Assembly (NCBI GenBank): GCA_020055845.1
Contig: JAGVIV010000001.1
Coordinates: forward strand, 1 to 37,381
Length of the DNA stretch: 37,381 nt
Source of the DNA: Betaproteobacteria bacterium
GTDB lineage: Bacteria; Pseudomonadota; Gammaproteobacteria; Burkholderiales; Gallionellaceae
Direction of reading: 5' to 3'
The first letter of the stretch is position 1; the number at the start of each line of letters is the position of its first letter. A model generated the notes under the pieces. That model saw only the letters and a program-made list of their open reading frames with translations, had not been told where the DNA came from and ran no database searches. Both the position numbers and the translations under genes were made by a program. This document shows positions 8,678-16,010 of the stretch, piece after piece.

Positions 8678-9238
8678 ATGACAAATTCCAAAAGACCCGC
8701 CGCACGATCCCTTGATTTATCCGCCATGATTGCTGAAGTGGGCAACACACGTCAGGAAACCATGCTGGAACTGAGCACAGGACAGATACCGGCCGGAGAA
8801 TCATTCGAGCTGGAGGATGCCATCGCGGAAACGGTTCCCGCCACCGTCATCGGTGCAAACAGCTCCGGCTTTCAGACACACGAGGAGCATCGCGGCGAGC
8901 CCCGCTTCCGCGTGCGCTGGCGTGTCAGCGCCGTACTTGCAAACGGGGAAAGCTATCACGGCATCATCAAAGATATTTCCAGCAAAGGTGCGGCAATACT
9001 TTTGTCACATGACCTCAAACAAACTGCAGAAGCCAGGCTGCATATCCAGGTTCCACCCCTCAACTCGGGACAAAAACCGCACATCCTCGTGATTCGCGCA
9101 AAACTGCTGTACACCATCCACGATAACGATGAACTGCATTTCCGCAGCGGCCTGCTGTTTGAGGAGTTCAAGTCCGACGCGGATAAAAACTATCTACAAT
9201 CCCGCCTCGACAACTATTTCATCAAACCCCGCAACTAA
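8678..9238 (+). CDS. PilZ-domain protein (putative cyclic-di-GMP effector)
   Basis: 186 residues from ATG at 8678. A longer frame opens with TTG at 8615, and neither start has a convincing ribosome site. The C-terminal half is a PilZ domain with both c-di-GMP signatures: RFRVR at residues 76-80 (RxxxR) and DISSKG at 99-104 (D/NxSxxG), followed by the barrel strands VIRAKLLYTI and HFRSGLLFEEF. The first 70 residues are a weakly conserved, polar extension of unknown role. It could respond to c-di-GMP levels set in part by the HD-GYP protein encoded at 22592, but that link is only inference. Confidence 0.85.
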   Translation: MTNSKRPAARSLDLSAMIAEVGNTRQETMLELSTGQIPAGESFELEDAIAETVPATVIGANSSGFQTHEEHRGEPRFRVRWRVSAVLANGESYHGIIKDISSKGAAILLSHDLKQTAEARLHIQVPPLNSGQKPHILVIRAKLLYTIHDNDELHFRSGLLFEEFKSDADKNYLQSRLDNYFIKPRN

Positions 9239-9264
9239 ACGCGTGCACGCCACCTTACCCGGCG

Positions 9265-10695
9265 CTACTGCACGTTTGCCGAAACGAAAGCCTTAAGCTT
9301 CACCACATCCGCATCCATCACAGTACAGCGCTGCGGCAAATCTTCGATTCCCTCCAGCGCCGACGGACGTTCCGGCTTGCGCCCCAAAGCCTCGACGATG
9401 GTCTCCTCGAATTTGGCTGGCAGTGCGGTCTCCAGACAGATGAGCGGCAAGCTCGGACGACGCTGCTCCAGGCCCACTTTCAGGCCGTCTGCGGTGTGCG
9501 TGTCTATCATCACTCCGTACTCTTCCCACAGCTCGCGAATGGTCTTCAATCGGTCCTGATGCGAACTCTTACCGGAGGCAAAATGGAATTTCGACAGCTC
9601 ATTCCAGTACGGAGTCCCCTTGATGTCGAACGAGCCACCCGCATCGACCTTGCTCCAGAACTCGCGCACTTTTGCACCGTCGCGCCCGACCAGATCGAAC
9701 ACGAAGCGCTCGAAGTTGGATGCCTTGGAAATATCCATAGACGGGCTGCTGGTCTCGTAGGTGTGATCTGTGCCGCGCGGACGGTAAACGCCGGTGCGGA
9801 AAAATTCATCCAGCACATCGTTCTCGTTCGTCGCCAGAATCAACTGACCGATGGGCAAGCCCATCATGCGCGCGATGTGTCCGGCGCAAATGTTGCCGAA
9901 GTTGCCGGAAGGCACGGAGAAGGCGACCTGCTCGTCGTTGGATTTCGTCGCGGCAAAATAGCCCTTGAAGTAATACACTATCTGCGCCGATACGCGTCCC
10001 CAGTTGATCGAGTTGACCGTGCCGATCTTGTGCGCAGCCTTGTAGGCATGGTCGTTGGAGACGGCCTTCACCATATCCTGCGCGTCGTCGAACATGCCGT
10101 TGATGGCGATGTTGAAAATATTCGGGTCTTGCAGCGAATACATTTGCGCGCGCTGGAACGCGGACATCTTGCCGTTCGGCGACAGCATGAACACGCGGAT
10201 GCCGCGCTTGCCGCGCATCGCGTATTCGGCGGCAGAACCGGTATCGCCGGAAGTCGCGCCCAGAATATTCAGTTCGGCATTTTGCTTGCCCAGAGCATAC
10301 TCGAACAGATTGCCCAGCAACTGCATCGCCATGTCCTTGAACGCCAGCGTCGGGCCGTTGGAAAGCTCCTCGATGAACACGCCGTCAGTCAACTTGCGCA
10401 AGGGCGTGATCTGCGTTGCATCGCTATCCTCGCGGCCATTGCTGTACACCTCGGCGGTGTAAGTCTTGGCGATGATGGCCTTGAGGTCTGCCGCCGGAAT
10501 ATCGGTCGCGAACTTGGACAACACCGCAAACGCGAGATCGGCATACGACAACGAACGCCACGCATCCAGCTCGGCGCGTGTCACCTGCGGATACTGTTCC
10601 GGCAGATACAAACCGCCGTCCGGTGCTAAACCGCCCAGCAGGATTTCGGTGAAAGTTTTGGCGGGCGCATTGCCGCGAGTGGAGATGTATTTCAT
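9265..10695 (-). CDS. thrC: Threonine synthase
   Basis: PLP enzyme converting O-phosphohomoserine to threonine, the last step of threonine synthesis. 476 residues, the length of the long (E. coli/yeast-like) class. The N-terminus MKYISTRGNAPAKTFTEILL is diagnostic. The PLP lysine is K120 in SNGPTLAFKDMAMQLLG, and the phosphate loop is the GATSGDTGSAAEYA stretch. FSVPSGNFGNICAGHIARMMGLP is also typical. It is the last gene of a leftward operon with hom, but is separated from hom by two unrelated genes. It lies 28 bases after the DUF4276 stop and has AGGG upstream of its ATG. Confidence 0.96.
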   Translation of the reverse strand: MKYISTRGNAPAKTFTEILLGGLAPDGGLYLPEQYPQVTRAELDAWRSLSYADLAFAVLSKFATDIPAADLKAIIAKTYTAEVYSNGREDSDATQITPLRKLTDGVFIEELSNGPTLAFKDMAMQLLGNLFEYALGKQNAELNILGATSGDTGSAAEYAMRGKRGIRVFMLSPNGKMSAFQRAQMYSLQDPNIFNIAINGMFDDAQDMVKAVSNDHAYKAAHKIGTVNSINWGRVSAQIVYYFKGYFAATKSNDEQVAFSVPSGNFGNICAGHIARMMGLPIGQLILATNENDVLDEFFRTGVYRPRGTDHTYETSSPSMDISKASNFERFVFDLVGRDGAKVREFWSKVDAGGSFDIKGTPYWNELSKFHFASGKSSHQDRLKTIRELWEEYGVMIDTHTADGLKVGLEQRRPSLPLICLETALPAKFEETIVEALGRKPERPSALEGIEDLPQRCTVMDADVVKLKAFVSANVQ

Positions 10696-10723
10696 GAAAA
10701 ACCCTAATTAAAACTAACTAATT

Positions 10724-11398
10724 TCAATCAAACGCTGCCGCAGTTGGCAATAATAATTCCAGTTTCACCAGCCATTCATTAAAGTGCGGACAAGCGTTGC
10801 GCATTGCATCCAGCCCGATCTCAGAGGCAATCAATGGACCGTGAAAAGTTTTCTGGTAACCCGGCATAGCCTTCAGGATTCGTTTCGAGGGTGCGGATTC
10901 CGGACTATCGTTGATATCTTCAGGTGTCTGGTATTTGTGTGCCTGATCACCTAATGCAATAACAGTCTTATAGCTATCCGTCCATTCGGCGAACTTGCTT
11001 GGTTCCACAAACAGCAAAGCCTCAAATTCATGCACCATCAGATTTGGAATGAAATTGGCTCGCTCAATATCCTCCGCTAAGCGCGCTTCCAAAAATGATG
11101 CCTTCTGGTATCCGCTACCGTTGACAGGATATGCTTCATCCTGCTTGCCAGGAAAATCCGTAGGCAATGCGTAAAAATCAAACATGCTTGAGACATGCGC
11201 ACCGTTATCCTGTTGGCACAAGCGCTGAAGTTGGGGCTTGATCTTGGCATAACTGACAACTCCACCTTTATAGCCAGGACTAGTGCGAACGATAATCGGA
11301 GTTAGATATAATCCGAGCCGCGCATAGTGCGGCTCCAATAATTCGCGCACAAATGCTTCCTCGGTCTGCCCTTCGACCAACAGGTAAACGCGAGTCAT
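10724..11398 (-). CDS. DUF4276 family protein, TOPRIM-like partner of the AAA ATPase
   Basis: 224 residues from ATG at 11398, which overlaps the ATPase stop as ATGA. Visible motifs match the DUF4276 pattern: VYLLVEGQTEEAF (E9), SMFDFYALPTDFPG (D74, D81), MVHEFEALLFVEP (E124, E126) and INDSPESAPSKRI. An early glutamate in an hEGxTE motif followed by a spaced acidic pair resembles the metal site of TOPRIM/OLD-type nucleases, so a nuclease role is plausible but unproven. It is translationally coupled to the ATPase gene, as expected for an obligate partner. GC is low: 26 of 60 bases at 10921-10980, against 34 of 60 in thrC at 9601-9660. It sits inside the threonine operon, which suggests acquisition. 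Confidence 0.8.
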   Translation of the reverse strand: MTRVYLLVEGQTEEAFVRELLEPHYARLGLYLTPIIVRTSPGYKGGVVSYAKIKPQLQRLCQQDNGAHVSSMFDFYALPTDFPGKQDEAYPVNGSGYQKASFLEARLAEDIERANFIPNLMVHEFEALLFVEPSKFAEWTDSYKTVIALGDQAHKYQTPEDINDSPESAPSKRILKAMPGYQKTFHGPLIASEIGLDAMRNACPHFNEWLVKLELLLPTAAAFD

Positions 11399-12495
11399 CG
11401 TGCCGGTCTCCCACCCAGCAGATTCTTCTTCCACAACTCGCCCAGTGTATAGTCGTTCAGCCACTCAGCCAACCCTTCACCATTCAGGCGTTTGAAGGTA
11501 GAGGCACCACCTTGTTTGTCTACCACAACAAGATCATCCGCATCGAACTCATTGACCAACTCCACGGATTGAGTCGACACAATAAGCTGCTGAGATTCGG
11601 ATGCGGATTTCATCAACCCGCCAAGTACTGCGATAGCAAATGGATGCAAGCCCAGTTCCGGCTCATCTATCAGAATCGTAGCTGGCATGAACTCTGCAGG
11701 CTGCAACAAAACAGTAGCCAAGCAAATGAAACGTAAGGTGCCATCGGACAAAGCGCTGGCAGTAAATGGAACATCCTGTCCAGCCTCTGTCCATTCAAGC
11801 TGGATTTTTTCCTTGTTGTCGACGGTCGGTCGCAGGTAAAAATCTCCAAAGAACGGGGCCACCAATTGGATCGACTTGACGATACGTTTGTAGTGGGCCT
11901 CGTGATGATTCTTCAGACGATAGAGGAACGCAGCCAGATTACGTGCATCTTCGCGCAGGTATTCATTGTCATTGATGCCATGAACCTGCTTGACCAGCGC
12001 GCTACGGCTGGTGTCATGAAAATGATAAAGTTTCCAGCGACGCATGGCAGGCACGACGTATTCGTAAATCTTGGTTTTTCCCTTCTGCTCTTCCACATAA
12101 GTCTCAAAGTGGCCAGAACGCGGGTGCCAGCTACCATGCACGTACCACCAAAGTGCCTCATTCGCGAACATCATGCGATTATCTTGCGTTGGCTTGAGCG
12201 AAAATCGGTAGCCGTTATTGCCGAAATACATCTCAGCATGAAGCTCTTCAGTTTTCTTTCGTCCAAAATGCAATAGTGCATCCGGCCCGCCAGCATCGCC
12301 TACCGTAGCCTGAAGCTGTTTATCTAGAATACGGTTAATCAGGCGAAAGAAACCGATGAAATTAGATTTCCCAGCACCATTTGCCCCGATCAAGACATTC
12401 AGTTTCCCGAGTTCAATATCGCACTCAGCAATAGACTTATAGCCTTGCAGTACGAATCGAGAAAGTTGATTCCAATCTTGAACTTGTTTAATCAT
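11395..12495 (-). CDS. AAA family ATPase (RecF/OLD/ABC-type), first gene of a two-gene cassette
   Basis: 366 residues. SMC/ABC-like nucleotide-binding features are complete. Walker A is GANGAGKS at 37-44 following FVLQGYKSIAECDIELGKLNVLIG. An ABC-type signature LSDGTLR is at 249-255. Walker B is ILIDEPE at 274-280 with LGLHP after it, then the QLIVSTQS switch region at 303-310. Between them is a poorly conserved insertion rather than a long coiled coil. Such ATPases (AAA_21/AAA_15) often pair with TOPRIM-like or DUF proteins in antiphage modules; here the partner is the overlapping DUF4276 gene. The start lies 13 bases after hom. GC is low: 26 of 60 bases at 12061-12120, against 41 of 60 in hom at 12901-12960. 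Confidence 0.87.
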   Translation of the reverse strand: MIKQVQDWNQLSRFVLQGYKSIAECDIELGKLNVLIGANGAGKSNFIGFFRLINRILDKQLQATVGDAGGPDALLHFGRKKTEELHAEMYFGNNGYRFSLKPTQDNRMMFANEALWWYVHGSWHPRSGHFETYVEEQKGKTKIYEYVVPAMRRWKLYHFHDTSRSALVKQVHGINDNEYLREDARNLAAFLYRLKNHHEAHYKRIVKSIQLVAPFFGDFYLRPTVDNKEKIQLEWTEAGQDVPFTASALSDGTLRFICLATVLLQPAEFMPATILIDEPELGLHPFAIAVLGGLMKSASESQQLIVSTQSVELVNEFDADDLVVVDKQGGASTFKRLNGEGLAEWLNDYTLGELWKKNLLGGRPAR

Positions 12496-12508
12496 TTCTC
12501 AGTAACCG

Positions 12509-13822
12509 TTATTTACCCAGTTCTTCCATTCGAAGCTTCGTCACCTTGCCCGCCACCACGCCCAGCTTCTCGATCTTGGTGATGGCTGAGTTGATGCGCT
12601 TCTCGCGGGTTTGGTGGGTGAGCATAATGAGGTCGGTTTGGTCTTCGCCTTCGCCGGGTTCTTTTTGGATTACGGCATCGATGGAGATTTGTTCGTCGGC
12701 GAGGATGCGGGTGATGTCGGCCAGCACGCCGGGTTTGTCCTGCACGCGCAGACGCAGGTAGTAGCTGGTCGTCACGTCATCCATAGACAAAATTTTCAGA
12801 TCGGCCATCGCGTTCGGCTGGAAGGCCAGATGCGGCACGCGGTTTTGCGGGTCGGCGGTGTGCATGCGCGTCACGTCCACCAAGTCGGCGATCACCGCGC
12901 TGGCGGTAGGTTCCGCGCCCGCGCCTTTGCCGTAATACAGCGTCGCACCGACCGCATCGCCCTGCACCACGACGGCATTCATCGCGCCTTCGACGTTGGC
13001 GATCAGGCGTTTGCTCGGGATCAGTGTCGGGTGTACGCGCAGCTCCACACCTTCGGCGGTGCGCTTGGTGATGCCCAGCAGCTTGATGCGGTAGCCGAGT
13101 TGTTCGGCGTATTTGATGTCGGCGGCATCCAGTTTGGAAATGCCTTCAATGTAGGCTTTTTCGAACTGCATCGGGATGCCGAAGGCGAGCGCGGACAGGA
13201 TGGTGATCTTGTGTGCCGCGTCCACGCCTTCGATGTCGAAGGTGGGGTCGGCTTCGGCGTAGCCCAGACGCTGCGCTTCTTTGAGCACGGTGTCGAAGCT
13301 CAGCCCCTTGTCGCGCATTTCGGACAGGATAAAGTTGGTGGTGCCATTGATAATGCCCGCGATCCATTCGATGCGATTGGCAGTAAGACCTTCACGCACC
13401 GCTTTGATGATGGGGATGCCGCCCGCGACTGCCGCCTCGAATGCCACCATCACACGCATCTTCTGCGCAGCGGTGAATATCTCGTTGCCGTGTGTTGCCA
13501 GCAAAGCTTTATTGGCGGTGACCACATGTTTGCCATTGGCAATGGCTTTAAGCACCAGTTCTTTCGCCACGCCGTAGCCGCCGATGAGTTCAATGACGAT
13601 ATCCACTTCTGGATCATTCACCACAGCAAAGGCATCGTCGGTCACGCGGCAGGCTCCGCCGGTGATTTTCTTCGCGAGTTCAAGATTGCGATCCGCCACT
13701 ACAGTGATGCGAATCGAGCGTCCCGCGCGGCGTGCGATCTCTTCCGCATTGCGTTGCAGCACAGTAAATGTTCCGCCACCGACCGTGCCGATACCGAGAA
13801 GTCCTACGTTGATTGGTTTCAT
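12509..13822 (-). CDS. hom: Homoserine dehydrogenase
   Basis: Reduces aspartate semialdehyde to homoserine, the branch step to threonine and methionine. 437 residues in the standard monofunctional architecture. The Rossmann NAD(P) motif is GLLGIGTVGGGTF at the N-terminus. The catalytic domain has VAFEAAVAGGIPIIKAVREGL and GIINGTTNFILSEM. YYGKGAGAEPTASAVIADL follows, and a C-terminal ACT domain (about 350-437: YYLRLRVQDKPGVLADITRIL) gives likely feedback control by threonine. It overlaps the GNAT gene by four bases (ATGA) and is followed by the AAA/DUF4276 pair and then thrC on the same strand. Confidence 0.97.
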   Translation of the reverse strand: MKPINVGLLGIGTVGGGTFTVLQRNAEEIARRAGRSIRITVVADRNLELAKKITGGACRVTDDAFAVVNDPEVDIVIELIGGYGVAKELVLKAIANGKHVVTANKALLATHGNEIFTAAQKMRVMVAFEAAVAGGIPIIKAVREGLTANRIEWIAGIINGTTNFILSEMRDKGLSFDTVLKEAQRLGYAEADPTFDIEGVDAAHKITILSALAFGIPMQFEKAYIEGISKLDAADIKYAEQLGYRIKLLGITKRTAEGVELRVHPTLIPSKRLIANVEGAMNAVVVQGDAVGATLYYGKGAGAEPTASAVIADLVDVTRMHTADPQNRVPHLAFQPNAMADLKILSMDDVTTSYYLRLRVQDKPGVLADITRILADEQISIDAVIQKEPGEGEDQTDLIMLTHQTREKRINSAITKIEKLGVVAGKVTKLRMEELGK

Positions 13823-14256
13823 GAGAATGATTTCTTAAAGTTAAAAGCGGGAATAACAAAACCTTCGCGAAAATAAAACTTGTGTGCCTGTGTGCGCTGC
13901 GTGCCCGAATCCAGTACCAATCCGTTTGCGCCCAATTTTTTGGCAACCTCTTCAAGATGCGCGATCAAGGCGTGGCCTACACCTTCGGAACGGCGTACCT
14001 CATCGGTCACGAGATCGTCGATATAGAATTTCAATCCGTCGTAAGTGTTTTCGTGCCAGCGGTAAACGGCCAACCCGAGAACCGCCTCACCCTCAACCGC
14101 CAGCGCCATGCGCGCATCCTTCAGCACCCTCGTCATCTTGGCCATGTAATCGTCCGGCAAGTGCGGGCGCAATTGACGATGTACACTTTCGGCATGCGCC
14201 AACCACTCACTACCGGCAAGCTGCCCGTCCTCAGCAAATACTTCGACAATTTTCAT
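13819..14256 (-). CDS. GNAT-family N-acetyltransferase
   Basis: 145 residues. The GNAT core is visible: LAVYRWHENTYDGLKFYIDDLVTDEVRRSEGVGHALIAHLEEVAKKLG is motif A, with RRSEGVGHAL at the acetyl-CoA pyrophosphate loop. Motif B follows (LVLDSGTQRTQAHKFYFREGF). The acceptor substrate is unknown. It is embedded in the alaA-hom operon with ATGA overlaps at both ends (14253-14256 with alaA, 13819-13822 with hom), which implies tight co-translation rather than a casual neighbour. Confidence 0.88.
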   Translation of the reverse strand: MKIVEVFAEDGQLAGSEWLAHAESVHRQLRPHLPDDYMAKMTRVLKDARMALAVEGEAVLGLAVYRWHENTYDGLKFYIDDLVTDEVRRSEGVGHALIAHLEEVAKKLGANGLVLDSGTQRTQAHKFYFREGFVIPAFNFKKSFS

Positions 14257-15512
14257 GTCTCATGTCTCTTGCGATAGCTTTCCAGAAAGCGCGCAATGCG
14301 GCCGACCGCTTCGGTCAGGTCATCCGCATTAGGCAGAAACACGATGCGCAGATGATCGGAGTGCGGCCAGTTGAAACCGCTGCCCTGCACCACCAGCACC
14401 TTCTCCTGCTCCAACAGTTCGAGAATAAACTTCTGGTCGTTCTCGATGGGGTACATCTTGGGGTCGAGCTTGGGAAACAGATATAGCGCGGCCTTGGGTT
14501 TAACGCAGCTCACACCGGGGATTGCGGTGAGCAAGTCGTAAGCCAGATCGCGCTGTTTGGCCAAACGCCCGCCCGGTGCCACTAGGTCATTGATGCTCTG
14601 ATAGCCGCCCAGCGCCGTCTGAATCGCGAACTGTCCCTGTACGTTGGAACACAAACGCATCGAGGCAAGGATGGTCAGACCGTCGATATAGTCCTGCGCA
14701 TTTTTCTTGTTGCCGGACACGATCATCCAGCCCGCGCGATAGCCGCAGGCACGGTAATTCTTAGACAATCCGTTCATCGTCACAAACAACACGTCATCCG
14801 CCAGCGAAGCGATGGACGTATGTGTCGCGCCGTCGTACAAAACTTTGTCGTAAATCTCGTCGGCAAAAATAATGAGCTGATGTTCGCGCGCGACGGCAAT
14901 AATCTCGCGCAGCAAATCGTCGGAATACAGCGCGCCGGTCGGATTGTTCGGATTGATGACGACAATCGCCTTGGTATTGGGCGTAATTTTGCTGCGCATG
15001 TCTGCCATATCCGGCATCCACTCGTTCGCCTCGTCGCACAGATAATGGCGCGGAGTGCCGCCCGCCAGCGTCACCGCCGCCGTCCACAGCGGGTAATCCG
15101 GCGCGGGAACCAGCACTTCGTCGCCGGTGTTCAACAGCCCTTGCATGGTCATGACGATCAGCTCGGACGCGCCGTTGCCGATAAAAATATCCTCCATCCC
15201 GACCCCGGAAATATTCTTCTGCTGCGCGTAGTGCATGATGGATTTGCGCGCGGCGAACATGCCTTTGGAATCGGAATAACCCGACGAATTCGGCAGATTG
15301 TGGATCACATCCTGCTGGATCTCTTCCGGCGCTTCAAAACCGAAAGGCGCGAGATTGCCGATGTTCAATTTGATGATGCGGTGACCATCCTCTTCCATCT
15401 GTTTCGCTCGCGCCATGACCGGGCCGCGAATGTCGTAGCAGACGTTCGCCAGCTTGGTGGATTTCAGCACGGGGCGATTGGAATCGGTATCGGATGATTT
15501 GGTTTGTGTCAC
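14253..15512 (-). CDS. alaA: Alanine-type PLP aminotransferase (AlaA-like)
   Basis: Class I/II aminotransferase making alanine from pyruvate and glutamate, 419 residues from GTG at 15512. It is close to E. coli AlaA (YfbQ) along its whole length: KLANVCYDIRGPV, ASELIVMTMQGLL, PAPDYPLWTAAVTLAGG, INPNNPTGALYS, FADEIYDKVLYD, and the PLP lysine in TMNGLSKNYRACGYRAGW, then ASMRLCSNVQGQ. The conserved N-terminal turn normally read NIGNPAPFGF is NIGNLAPFGF here (Pro to Leu). It is the first gene of the GNAT-hom-(AAA-DUF4276)-thrC operon, an order common in betaproteobacteria apart from the inserted pair. Confidence 0.92.
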   Translation of the reverse strand: MTQTKSSDTDSNRPVLKSTKLANVCYDIRGPVMARAKQMEEDGHRIIKLNIGNLAPFGFEAPEEIQQDVIHNLPNSSGYSDSKGMFAARKSIMHYAQQKNISGVGMEDIFIGNGASELIVMTMQGLLNTGDEVLVPAPDYPLWTAAVTLAGGTPRHYLCDEANEWMPDMADMRSKITPNTKAIVVINPNNPTGALYSDDLLREIIAVAREHQLIIFADEIYDKVLYDGATHTSIASLADDVLFVTMNGLSKNYRACGYRAGWMIVSGNKKNAQDYIDGLTILASMRLCSNVQGQFAIQTALGGYQSINDLVAPGGRLAKQRDLAYDLLTAIPGVSCVKPKAALYLFPKLDPKMYPIENDQKFILELLEQEKVLVVQGSGFNWPHSDHLRIVFLPNADDLTEAVGRIARFLESYRKRHET

Positions 15513-15641
15513 TTTGTTCTCTCAATCTATATTTCAGGCGCGGTCGAATCCGGTAGAATCCGCCAAAATCCCTTGAAACGACGGCTTGCGGAGGCCGCAA
15601 TTCTATCCGAGCGCGCCCCCGCCAGCAAATGGAGTTAAGCC

Positions 15642-16010
15642 TTGAAACTGCACCCCTCGAACAACACCGGTCAAAAGACCTTTACCGCGCACGGCGAGGG
15701 TTATGTCGCCGTCAACGGCGAACGCTTTACCCGCCCCATCCTCGTTAGCGCCGGACAAGTACAGCGCGACTGGGGCGCGCAAGACCTCGCCACACTCACT
15801 CCGCTGCACTTCGAGCAGATTCTGTCTCTTGCCCCCGAGGTGGTGATATTCGGCACGGGGACACGGCAACACTTTCCCCCCGTGCAACTGTATCGCAGCC
15901 TGATTGATGCGGGTATCAGCGTCGAATTCATGGACACCCCTGCAGCCTGCCGCACCTACAATATCCTTGTAGCCGAAGACCGCAAGGTGATTGCGGCCGT
16001 TCTGCTATGA
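15642..16010 (+). CDS. Mth938-like (DUF498) domain protein
   Basis: 122 residues from TTG at 15642, which has GGAG seven bases upstream; no in-frame ATG is available. The sequence follows the Mth938/Xcc1710/NDUFAF3-like fold: GEGYVAVNGERFTRPILVSAG, then LSLAPEVVIFGTGTRQHFPP, IDAGISVEFMDTPAACRTYNILVAEDRKVIAAVL. FGTGTRQ and MDTPAACRTYN are the two best-conserved motifs. Molecular function in bacteria is not established. It overlaps the DUF2164 gene by four bases and is divergent from alaA. Confidence 0.88.
   Translation: MKLHPSNNTGQKTFTAHGEGYVAVNGERFTRPILVSAGQVQRDWGAQDLATLTPLHFEQILSLAPEVVIFGTGTRQHFPPVQLYRSLIDAGISVEFMDTPAACRTYNILVAEDRKVIAAVLL

Follow-up and report, generated by a model that had tools for sequence, protein, structure and literature searches.

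The window analysed here is a stretch of 37,381 nucleotides from a Betaproteobacteria bacterium of the family Gallionellaceae (GenBank contig JAGVIV010000001.1, our contig C9), in which a gene for an ATPase and a gene for a DUF4276 protein lie between the threonine-pathway genes hom and thrC. On its matches to PADLOC models this pair is HEC-01, a candidate antiphage system that PADLOC already holds. We favour the reading, with a probability of about 0.77, that the alaA-(GNAT)-hom-thrC run of the family contains a recurrent slot and that this candidate antiphage cassette occupies it. In 22 of 121 genomes, precisely the hom-thrC junction is filled by compact same-facing cassettes, and half of these belong to known or candidate kinds of defence system. 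A sequence-only reading of the window had taken the placement of the pair as a one-off, which did not survive comparison with relatives, as the pair is one cargo among many at a hom-thrC hotspot.

The junction was surveyed in 158 family genomes (G, L and g label the genomes, loci and genera of the survey, and G000 is the window's own genome). Both hom and thrC were found in 132 of these and lay on one contig and strand in 121. Among the 121, the gap was below 60 bp in 28, 60–249 bp in 57 and 250–499 bp in 14, and it reached 500 bp or more in 22; with 85 gaps below 250 bp, the expectation that hom and thrC are adjacent in most relatives held. The 22 wide junctions contained inserts of 0.56–3.1 kb and belonged to six genera (g1, g2, g9, g13, g14 and g15). 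The window's genus had six contiguous junctions, three of them occupied (by HEC-01, an EcoRV-type restriction-modification (R-M) system and HEC-05) and three with gaps of 119–252 bp. Two neighbouring-gene junctions served as controls. The alaA-hom gap reached 500 bp or more in 2/127 genomes, one of which (G129) is an artefact of a truncated hom match, leaving G066, and 13 more genomes had gaps of 250–499 bp, nine of these being exactly 430 bp. For ilvN-ilvC, with distances measured between profile ends and not gene ends, the figure was 0/136. Fisher tests gave p = 5e-6 against alaA-hom (22/121 vs 2/127) and p = 2e-8 against ilvN-ilvC, values that refer to these two controls and are uncorrected for the shared ancestry of the genomes. 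Outside the family, 33 genomes with both genes gave 29 adjacent pairs, of which a single one had a gap of 500 bp or more (G091, 1140 bp); on this small outside sample (1/29), the slot may be a family trait. The hom-thrC junction, where related genomes carry unlike defence systems between one pair of core genes and which is filled more often than the two controls, reads as a hotspot of defence genes within a housekeeping operon.

The source genome of the window (2.79 Mb, 343 contigs, 7.3% contamination) is of a quality that invites the suspicion of a chimera, in which assembly or binning wrongly joined the pair to hom and thrC in a contaminated metagenome-assembled genome. We consider this extremely improbable. 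G033, an independent genome that is 99% complete with 1% contamination in about 30 contigs, has the same gene order, with proteins 91% and 79% identical to those of the window, and the junction is occupied in 22 genomes.

Grouped by BLAST, the cargo of the 22 occupied junctions fell into 15 kinds; families were scanned in one representative of most clusters and not in every copy, the restriction cassette in G003 and HEC-01 in the window. An EcoRV-type restriction enzyme with a D12 methylase filled six junctions (G003, G127, G163, G191, G192 and G201) and HEC-01 filled two (the window and G033). HEC-02AB was found in G149, HEC-03AB with a PIN gene in G021 and HEC-05/GmrSD in G005. The remaining cargo consisted of a DndB-like gene with a GIY-YIG gene (G158; DpdB model, 1.7e-12), an HNH gene (G060), a DUF4062 gene with a RecG-like C-terminus (G034; weak partial matches to Argonaute-type models, 2.5e-12), a PIN toxin (G019), DUF433/DUF5615 (G144), BrnT (G162), a 224–228 aa family of no recognised kind (G044 and G069), single uncharacterised genes (G047 and G195), and a cupin gene with SRPBCC and DUF4260 genes (G135). 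By class there were six EcoRV-type R-M systems, two of HEC-01, one each of HEC-02, HEC-03 and HEC-05, three cargoes of toxin-antitoxin type, three with nuclease or ATP-binding domains and five without a clear defence link. Two of these figures weigh against reading the slot as one for defence genes: kinds with strong PADLOC matches occupy only 11 of the 22 junctions, and 5 of the 22 lack a clear link to defence. The 224–228 aa protein (L083 398-1084 and L085 506-1180; G069 and G044) matched no Pfam family above cut-off, and its G069 copy had no PADLOC match; standing alone in the slot in two genera, it is a candidate new defence gene. In G005 (contig C276, 58808-60283) the thrC match is split in two beside the HEC-05 cargo, reflecting a frameshift or an assembly error.

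All 39 cargo genes counted (37 in 21 genomes, chosen by hand, plus the two of the window) run in the direction from hom to thrC. Forty gaps of at least 200 bp yielded 52 selected open reading frames (ORFs) with a length of 70 aa or more, of which 47 were forward and 5 reverse. The reverse ORFs (G176, 73 aa; G032, 191 aa; G131, 111 aa; G034, 82 aa; G021, 96 aa) were judged spurious and left out, those of G034 and G021 lying in gaps of at least 500 bp and those of G032 and G131 overlapping a forward cupin ORF; a 71-aa forward ORF of G144 was also left out of the 39. Across the 22 occupied junctions, the median distance was 8 nt from the hom stop to the first cargo gene and 42.5 nt from the last cargo gene to thrC, with long leaders of 217–383 nt in G019, G021 and G034 and a long tail of 403 nt in G144. 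Two-gene cargo was mostly joined through a 4-nt overlap, and most cassettes leave little room for promoters or terminators. In the window, positions 9100-15900 contained four promoter-like and seven terminator-like sites, compared with 4.0 and 8.0 in shuffled sequence, and a promoter or terminator belonging to the cassette was therefore rejected. Because the packing is tight and same-facing, and the sites in the window are not above shuffles, we infer that the cargo is co-transcribed with hom and thrC. No Rfam match was found in the window at the gathering threshold, and a threonine attenuator or riboswitch was rejected on this result; with the promoter-like sites no more numerous than in shuffles, the suggestion that the level of the pair follows threonine demand found no support. 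Under the hotspot reading, cassettes would enter through recombination close to gene boundaries, would be tolerated by facing the same way and not stopping transcription into thrC, and would be expressed on the thr mRNA. As to the entry route, a point against it is that direct repeats of 12 nt or longer were absent from positions 10600-12620 of the window, and mobile-element scars were rejected at this junction, the one scanned; four inverted pairs of 12–21 nt are present.

We then compared the histories of cassettes and flanks. All six close family copies of the EcoRV-like enzyme (76% or more) lie at hom-thrC, in three genera, and four distant matches (42–47%) lie on other contigs. G191 and G201 share 87–91% DNA identity in the flanks and 74/67% in the cassettes. 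For G163 and G191, which belong to different genera, the cassettes are 90/89% identical and the flanks 81–84%, and for G163 and G192 the flanks are 86–93%, the restriction genes 73% and the methylases 86% identical. Since cassette and flank identities disagree, alleles or whole cassettes appear to have been replaced within the same slot, and the G163/G191 pair is most simply read as transfer between genera. In 150-nt windows, identity between these two genomes rises from 82% to 94% just past the hom stop and is 82, 82 and 77% at the thrC start, then 87–90%; long-flank homologous recombination of restriction cassettes is not seen in this profile, and short tracts are possible. Within the cassette of G192 (contig C98), the restriction gene has 70–73% DNA identity to the other five and the methylase 80–86% to four of the five, so that its two halves appear to have different histories.

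Other comparisons fit an old vertical insertion, in which HEC-01 and the restriction cassettes had entered the junction in the family ancestor and were lost in most lineages, with nothing special drawing genes to the site. Several pairs of restriction cassettes are about as diverged as their flanks; G163 and G003, for example, show no divergence difference of the kind described above. Between the window and G033, identity is 80.6% for HEC-01A and 72.4% for HEC-01B, next to 83.6% for hom and 80.2% for thrC. This cargo has diverged as much as the flanks or more, which would fit an old shared insertion with losses, and the two HEC-01A copies are sisters in the tree (support 100/98); a third family copy, elsewhere in the genome of G051, groups with other bacteria. 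With the HEC-01 copies at least as diverged as their flanks, a single shared entry and then either transfer or loss would fit. Unequal rates of change may also explain part of the conflict between cassettes and flanks. These observations count against repeated recruitment. Descent from the ancestor is nevertheless unlikely as a full account, since 15 kinds of cargo in 22 junctions go beyond one ancestral insertion, the window's genus has three different systems in three genomes, and G191 and G201 combine near flanks with distant cassettes. We therefore retain the recurrent slot as the preferred reading.

In the window, the cassette and its walls all lie on the reverse strand, and ORF calls and profile matches agreed with the gene order, strands and coordinates of the sequence-only reading. 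The ATPase gene (11395..12495, 366 aa) encodes an SMC/OLD-like protein that PADLOC assigns to HEC-01A (PDLC04175, 1.3e-156, residues 9-364; AAA_21, 1.8e-29). The DUF4276 gene (10724..11398, ATG at 11398, 224 aa) encodes a Toprim-like presumed nuclease assigned to HEC-01B (PDLC04188, 1.7e-84, residues 1-216; PF14103, 1.3e-60). Both proteins thus match the HEC-01 models nearly end to end, and the two genes are adjacent as in that system. Their ATGA stop/start overlap (11395..11398), the 13-nt junction with hom (12496..12508) and the 28-nt junction with thrC (10696..10723) were confirmed, giving gaps of 13, -4 and 28 nt along hom, ATPase, DUF4276 and thrC. Upstream, the slot is walled by hom for homoserine dehydrogenase (12509..13822; Pfam Homoserine_dh, 1e-66; PRK06349, 1.3e-178) and downstream by thrC for threonine synthase (9265..10695; TIGR00260, 1.2e-71; Thr_synth_N, 3.4e-30). 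The proposed contrast in guanine-cytosine (GC) content stood in direction and shrank in size: in place of 43% vs 68% and 57%, we measured 48.4% for the ATPase gene and 48.0% for the DUF4276 gene vs 58.2% for hom and 57.8% for thrC. At third codon positions the values were 51.5 and 48.9 vs 71.9 and 75.9. Relatives of HEC-01 elsewhere also had lower GC than their flanks, by 0.4–12 points, in 18 of 20 checked, and the low GC of the pair alone is therefore not proof of recent arrival.

HEC-01 is a PADLOC candidate from the preprint of Payne et al. (2024; 10.1101/2024.01.29.577857), as referenced in an excerpt of PMC12988326. The window's pair is a candidate for antiphage defence by virtue of this assignment. 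Membership of MADS was rejected, as the mad3 model NF047739 scored 94.9 bits against a curated cut-off of 420. In an alignment search of genome contigs with DUF4276, the best 80 of at least 572 confirmed loci were kept. In 79 of the 80, the ATPase was the immediate upstream neighbour of DUF4276, with match ends 0–71 nt apart, and the 80th (L178) starts at a contig edge; in these best 80 of at least 572 loci, HEC-01A/B is therefore almost strictly a two-gene unit, and it occurs across many phyla. None of the 80 had a hom or thrC match at E 1e-4 within flanks of up to 7 kb, many of them cut by contig ends, and among the loci examined HEC-01 lies between hom and thrC only in the window's family. 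The pair was found at that junction in 2 of the 121 judged genomes (the window and G033), far from presence in essentially all relatives and in keeping with the proposal of a pair packed into a housekeeping amino-acid operon and patchy among relatives. A literature search found neither DUF4276 named nor HEC-01 together with PADLOC. The pair itself is an already named candidate, and the new part is its slot inside a biosynthetic operon, which takes up different compact same-facing cassettes, many of them defence systems.

Structure models of both proteins agreed with an ATPase and Toprim-like pair of the OLD type, as did the PADLOC assignments. The DUF4276 model, built from a 79-row alignment, had a predicted local distance difference test score (pLDDT) of 93.4. 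Foldseek placed OLD C-terminal regions first (E 2.3e-5, probability 1.00), with other matches at E 0.015 or worse. VIA-align gave four OLD entries at Z 9.2 to 8.6 (178 residues aligned in the top one, root-mean-square deviation (rmsd) 4.5); twelve of its first 13 rows were OLD, PARIS, retron-Eco8 or Gabija chains at Z 9.2 to 6.7, row 4 was an uncharacterised Pyrococcus protein, and unrelated LacI-type and lumazine synthase folds followed at Z 6.5–6.4. Because unrelated folds reach these values, only the OLD rows (Z 8.6–9.2) clearly exceed background. Invariant residues in the 79 sequences are E9, E13, D74, E124-x-E126 and K183. In OLD class 2 nucleases, according to an excerpt of PMC6755086, E400, D455 and D457 bind metal A, E508 with E404 and T506 binds metal B, and K562 aids cleavage. 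The DUF4276 residues correspond, matched by order and spacing and not by superposition, to E400, E404, D455, T506xE508 and K562 of that source. HEC-01B therefore looks like a Toprim-like fold nearest the Toprim region of OLD nucleases, and the expectation of a TOPRIM-like protein stood for the modelled fold and most catalytic residues; it did not stand for the DxD motif, which reads DxY. Several points weigh against the comparison: the second Asp of DxD is Tyr76 in DUF4276, nearly invariant in the 79 sequences, so that the metal site differs from that of OLD; the Foldseek superposition is loose (TM 0.40–0.43, rmsd about 8); and the PARIS, Eco8 and Gabija rows (Z 7.6–6.7) are little above the unrelated LacI-type fold (6.5). 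In sequence searches of the PDB, the DUF4276 profile reached E 0.25 at best, and the ATPase profile had OLD 6p74 as its best match (1.4e-12). The ATPase model (pLDDT 94.3) matched SMC heads, PtuA, retron ATPases, RecN, OLD and GajA in Foldseek. Its Walker A, ABC-type signature (SDG) and Walker B motifs, which the sequence-only reading had named, have key residues invariant in 64 aligned homologues.

The pair shares with OLD class 2 nucleases, as described in part of PMC6755086, a Toprim-like fold, the order and spacing of acidic residues and Lys, and an ABC/SMC-type ATPase partner. By the OLD family's own features, the Toprim-type fold is present in the model, whereas the single polypeptide is replaced by two ORFs (366 and 224 aa) and the full DxD by DxY, with a superposition at TM about 0.4. 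PARIS (AriA-AriB) resembles the pair in having a separate ATPase and Toprim nuclease. The window ATPase matches the AriA model at 1.1e-27 but HEC-01A far better, and the nuclease fold matches at Z 7.6. AriB, the effector of PARIS, is of the DUF4435 type, and its model was absent among the six PADLOC matches of the DUF4276 protein at E ≤ 1; membership of PARIS was rejected on this account. Gabija (GajA-GajB) also joins an OLD-type ATPase to a Toprim domain, with a fold match (Z 7.0) little above the unrelated rows, but has the GajB helicase next to GajA, whereas the pair adjoins thrC and hom and has no helicase gene downstream, and Gabija membership was likewise rejected. From the models, the best reading of the pair is probably a nuclease licensed by an SMC-type ATPase. 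In the mechanism we propose, HEC-01A would dimerise via its Walker and signature motifs and keep HEC-01B inactive until an infection trigger. Once triggered, it would license HEC-01B to cut nucleic acid, either DNA (as OLD and Gabija do) or tRNA (as PARIS does), and phage growth would be stopped, possibly at the cell's expense.

Elsewhere, several close relatives of HEC-01 sit among defence genes, in contrast to the window copy, whose host operon makes threonine. Of the close relatives L101-L128, 24 had sufficient flanking sequence; in eight of these the pair had codirectional ORFs within 200 nt on both sides, and the pair is thus often, not always, embedded in operons. We scanned 77 of the 125 ORFs listed around L101-L128 and found six SNF2/DrmD-HmaA-like helicases, seven type III-type methylases and seven proteins carrying ResIII. 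On an Aeromonas plasmid, genes for SNF2, ATPase, DUF4276 and methylase stand in one row with transposases near by, and a Nostoc plasmid copy follows a divergent AIPR gene and has an integrase after it, one gene on. Against the favoured reading stand the ordinary housekeeping genes among the rest of the 77 neighbours, and the scarcity of HEC-01A in phages and plasmids (at E 1e-40, 0/50,697 phage records and 15/72,556 plasmid records). The pair could instead be an ATPase-nuclease with a regulatory or repair task for the operon or for the cell as a whole. Not every OLD-family ATPase is antiviral: according to an excerpt of PMC12796447, archaeal members apparently have a role in the cell cycle. 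We regard such a role as quite improbable given the patchy presence of DUF4276 (11/158 family genomes), the relatives beside SNF2 helicases, type III methylases, ResIII or transposases, and the other defence systems that share the hom-thrC site. As HEC-01, HEC-02, HEC-03 and HEC-05 share this one threonine-operon slot, we tentatively suggest, at somewhat under even odds, that HEC-type units are compact, promoterless, translation-coupled defence cassettes able to insert between codirectional genes in operons of every sort, whether for defence or housekeeping, and to borrow the operon's transcription. If so, their link with other defence operons would be just one instance of a wider tendency to embed, and hom-thrC would be a slot accepting only same-facing, non-polar cassettes.

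A literature search on operon and hom-thrC wordings, judged mostly from titles and the openings of abstracts, found no description of such a slot; restriction systems are reported in a 2010 paper to be inserted in operon-like clusters. According to an excerpt of PMC5635113, new genes rarely integrate within operons, and the hom-thrC slot would be an exception to this stated rule that acquired genes avoid operon interiors. The horizontal-transfer hotspots of the same excerpt resemble the slot in that many have no identifiable mobile elements and show rapid turnover, and differ in being rarely within operons. In the core defence hotspots of P. aeruginosa, as given in part of PMC10250203, fixed core genes flank a zone of defence turnover as at hom-thrC, and neither those hotspots nor our slot obviously belong to one mobile-element group; cDHS1 spans 1–224 kb there, whereas the slot spans 0.56–3.1 kb in a biosynthetic operon with same-facing cargo. 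Reading the hom-thrC interval across the family offers a route to new defence genes, as uncharacterised genes there join restriction and HEC systems. If the hotspot reading is true, defence genes would be made steadily from a housekeeping message without a promoter of their own.

The remaining genes of the leftward run precede hom on the reverse strand. A GNAT acetyltransferase gene (13819..14256; Acetyltransf_1, 4.9e-11) lies between hom and the first gene of the run, an alaA-like aminotransferase gene (14253..15512; Aminotran_1_2, 5e-56) that the sequence-only reading had named alaA. The alaA-hom gap is exactly 430 bp in 9/127 genomes, the window with its GNAT gene included, and some lineages may thus have acquired a gene at this junction as well; in G066 a 112-aa ORF between alaA and hom (L193 2567-2905) is GIY-YIG-like by eye.

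Three further observations concern hom-thrC itself. In 12 genomes (G010, G152, G036, G157, G130, G171, G032, G131, G120, G147, G135 and G192), a cupin-like gene of about 104 aa lies at the hom stop or a short way past it. Short palindromic repeats, by eye of the ATTCCCGC...GCGGGAAT type, precede thrC in G036, G171, G032, G131, G168 and others, as if the junction also collected REP-like elements. Finally, thrC of 20 family genomes (e.g. G127, G061 and G052) is 66–69% identical to that of the window, and their hom 81–91%; in part of genus g13, thrC appears to be a replacement.
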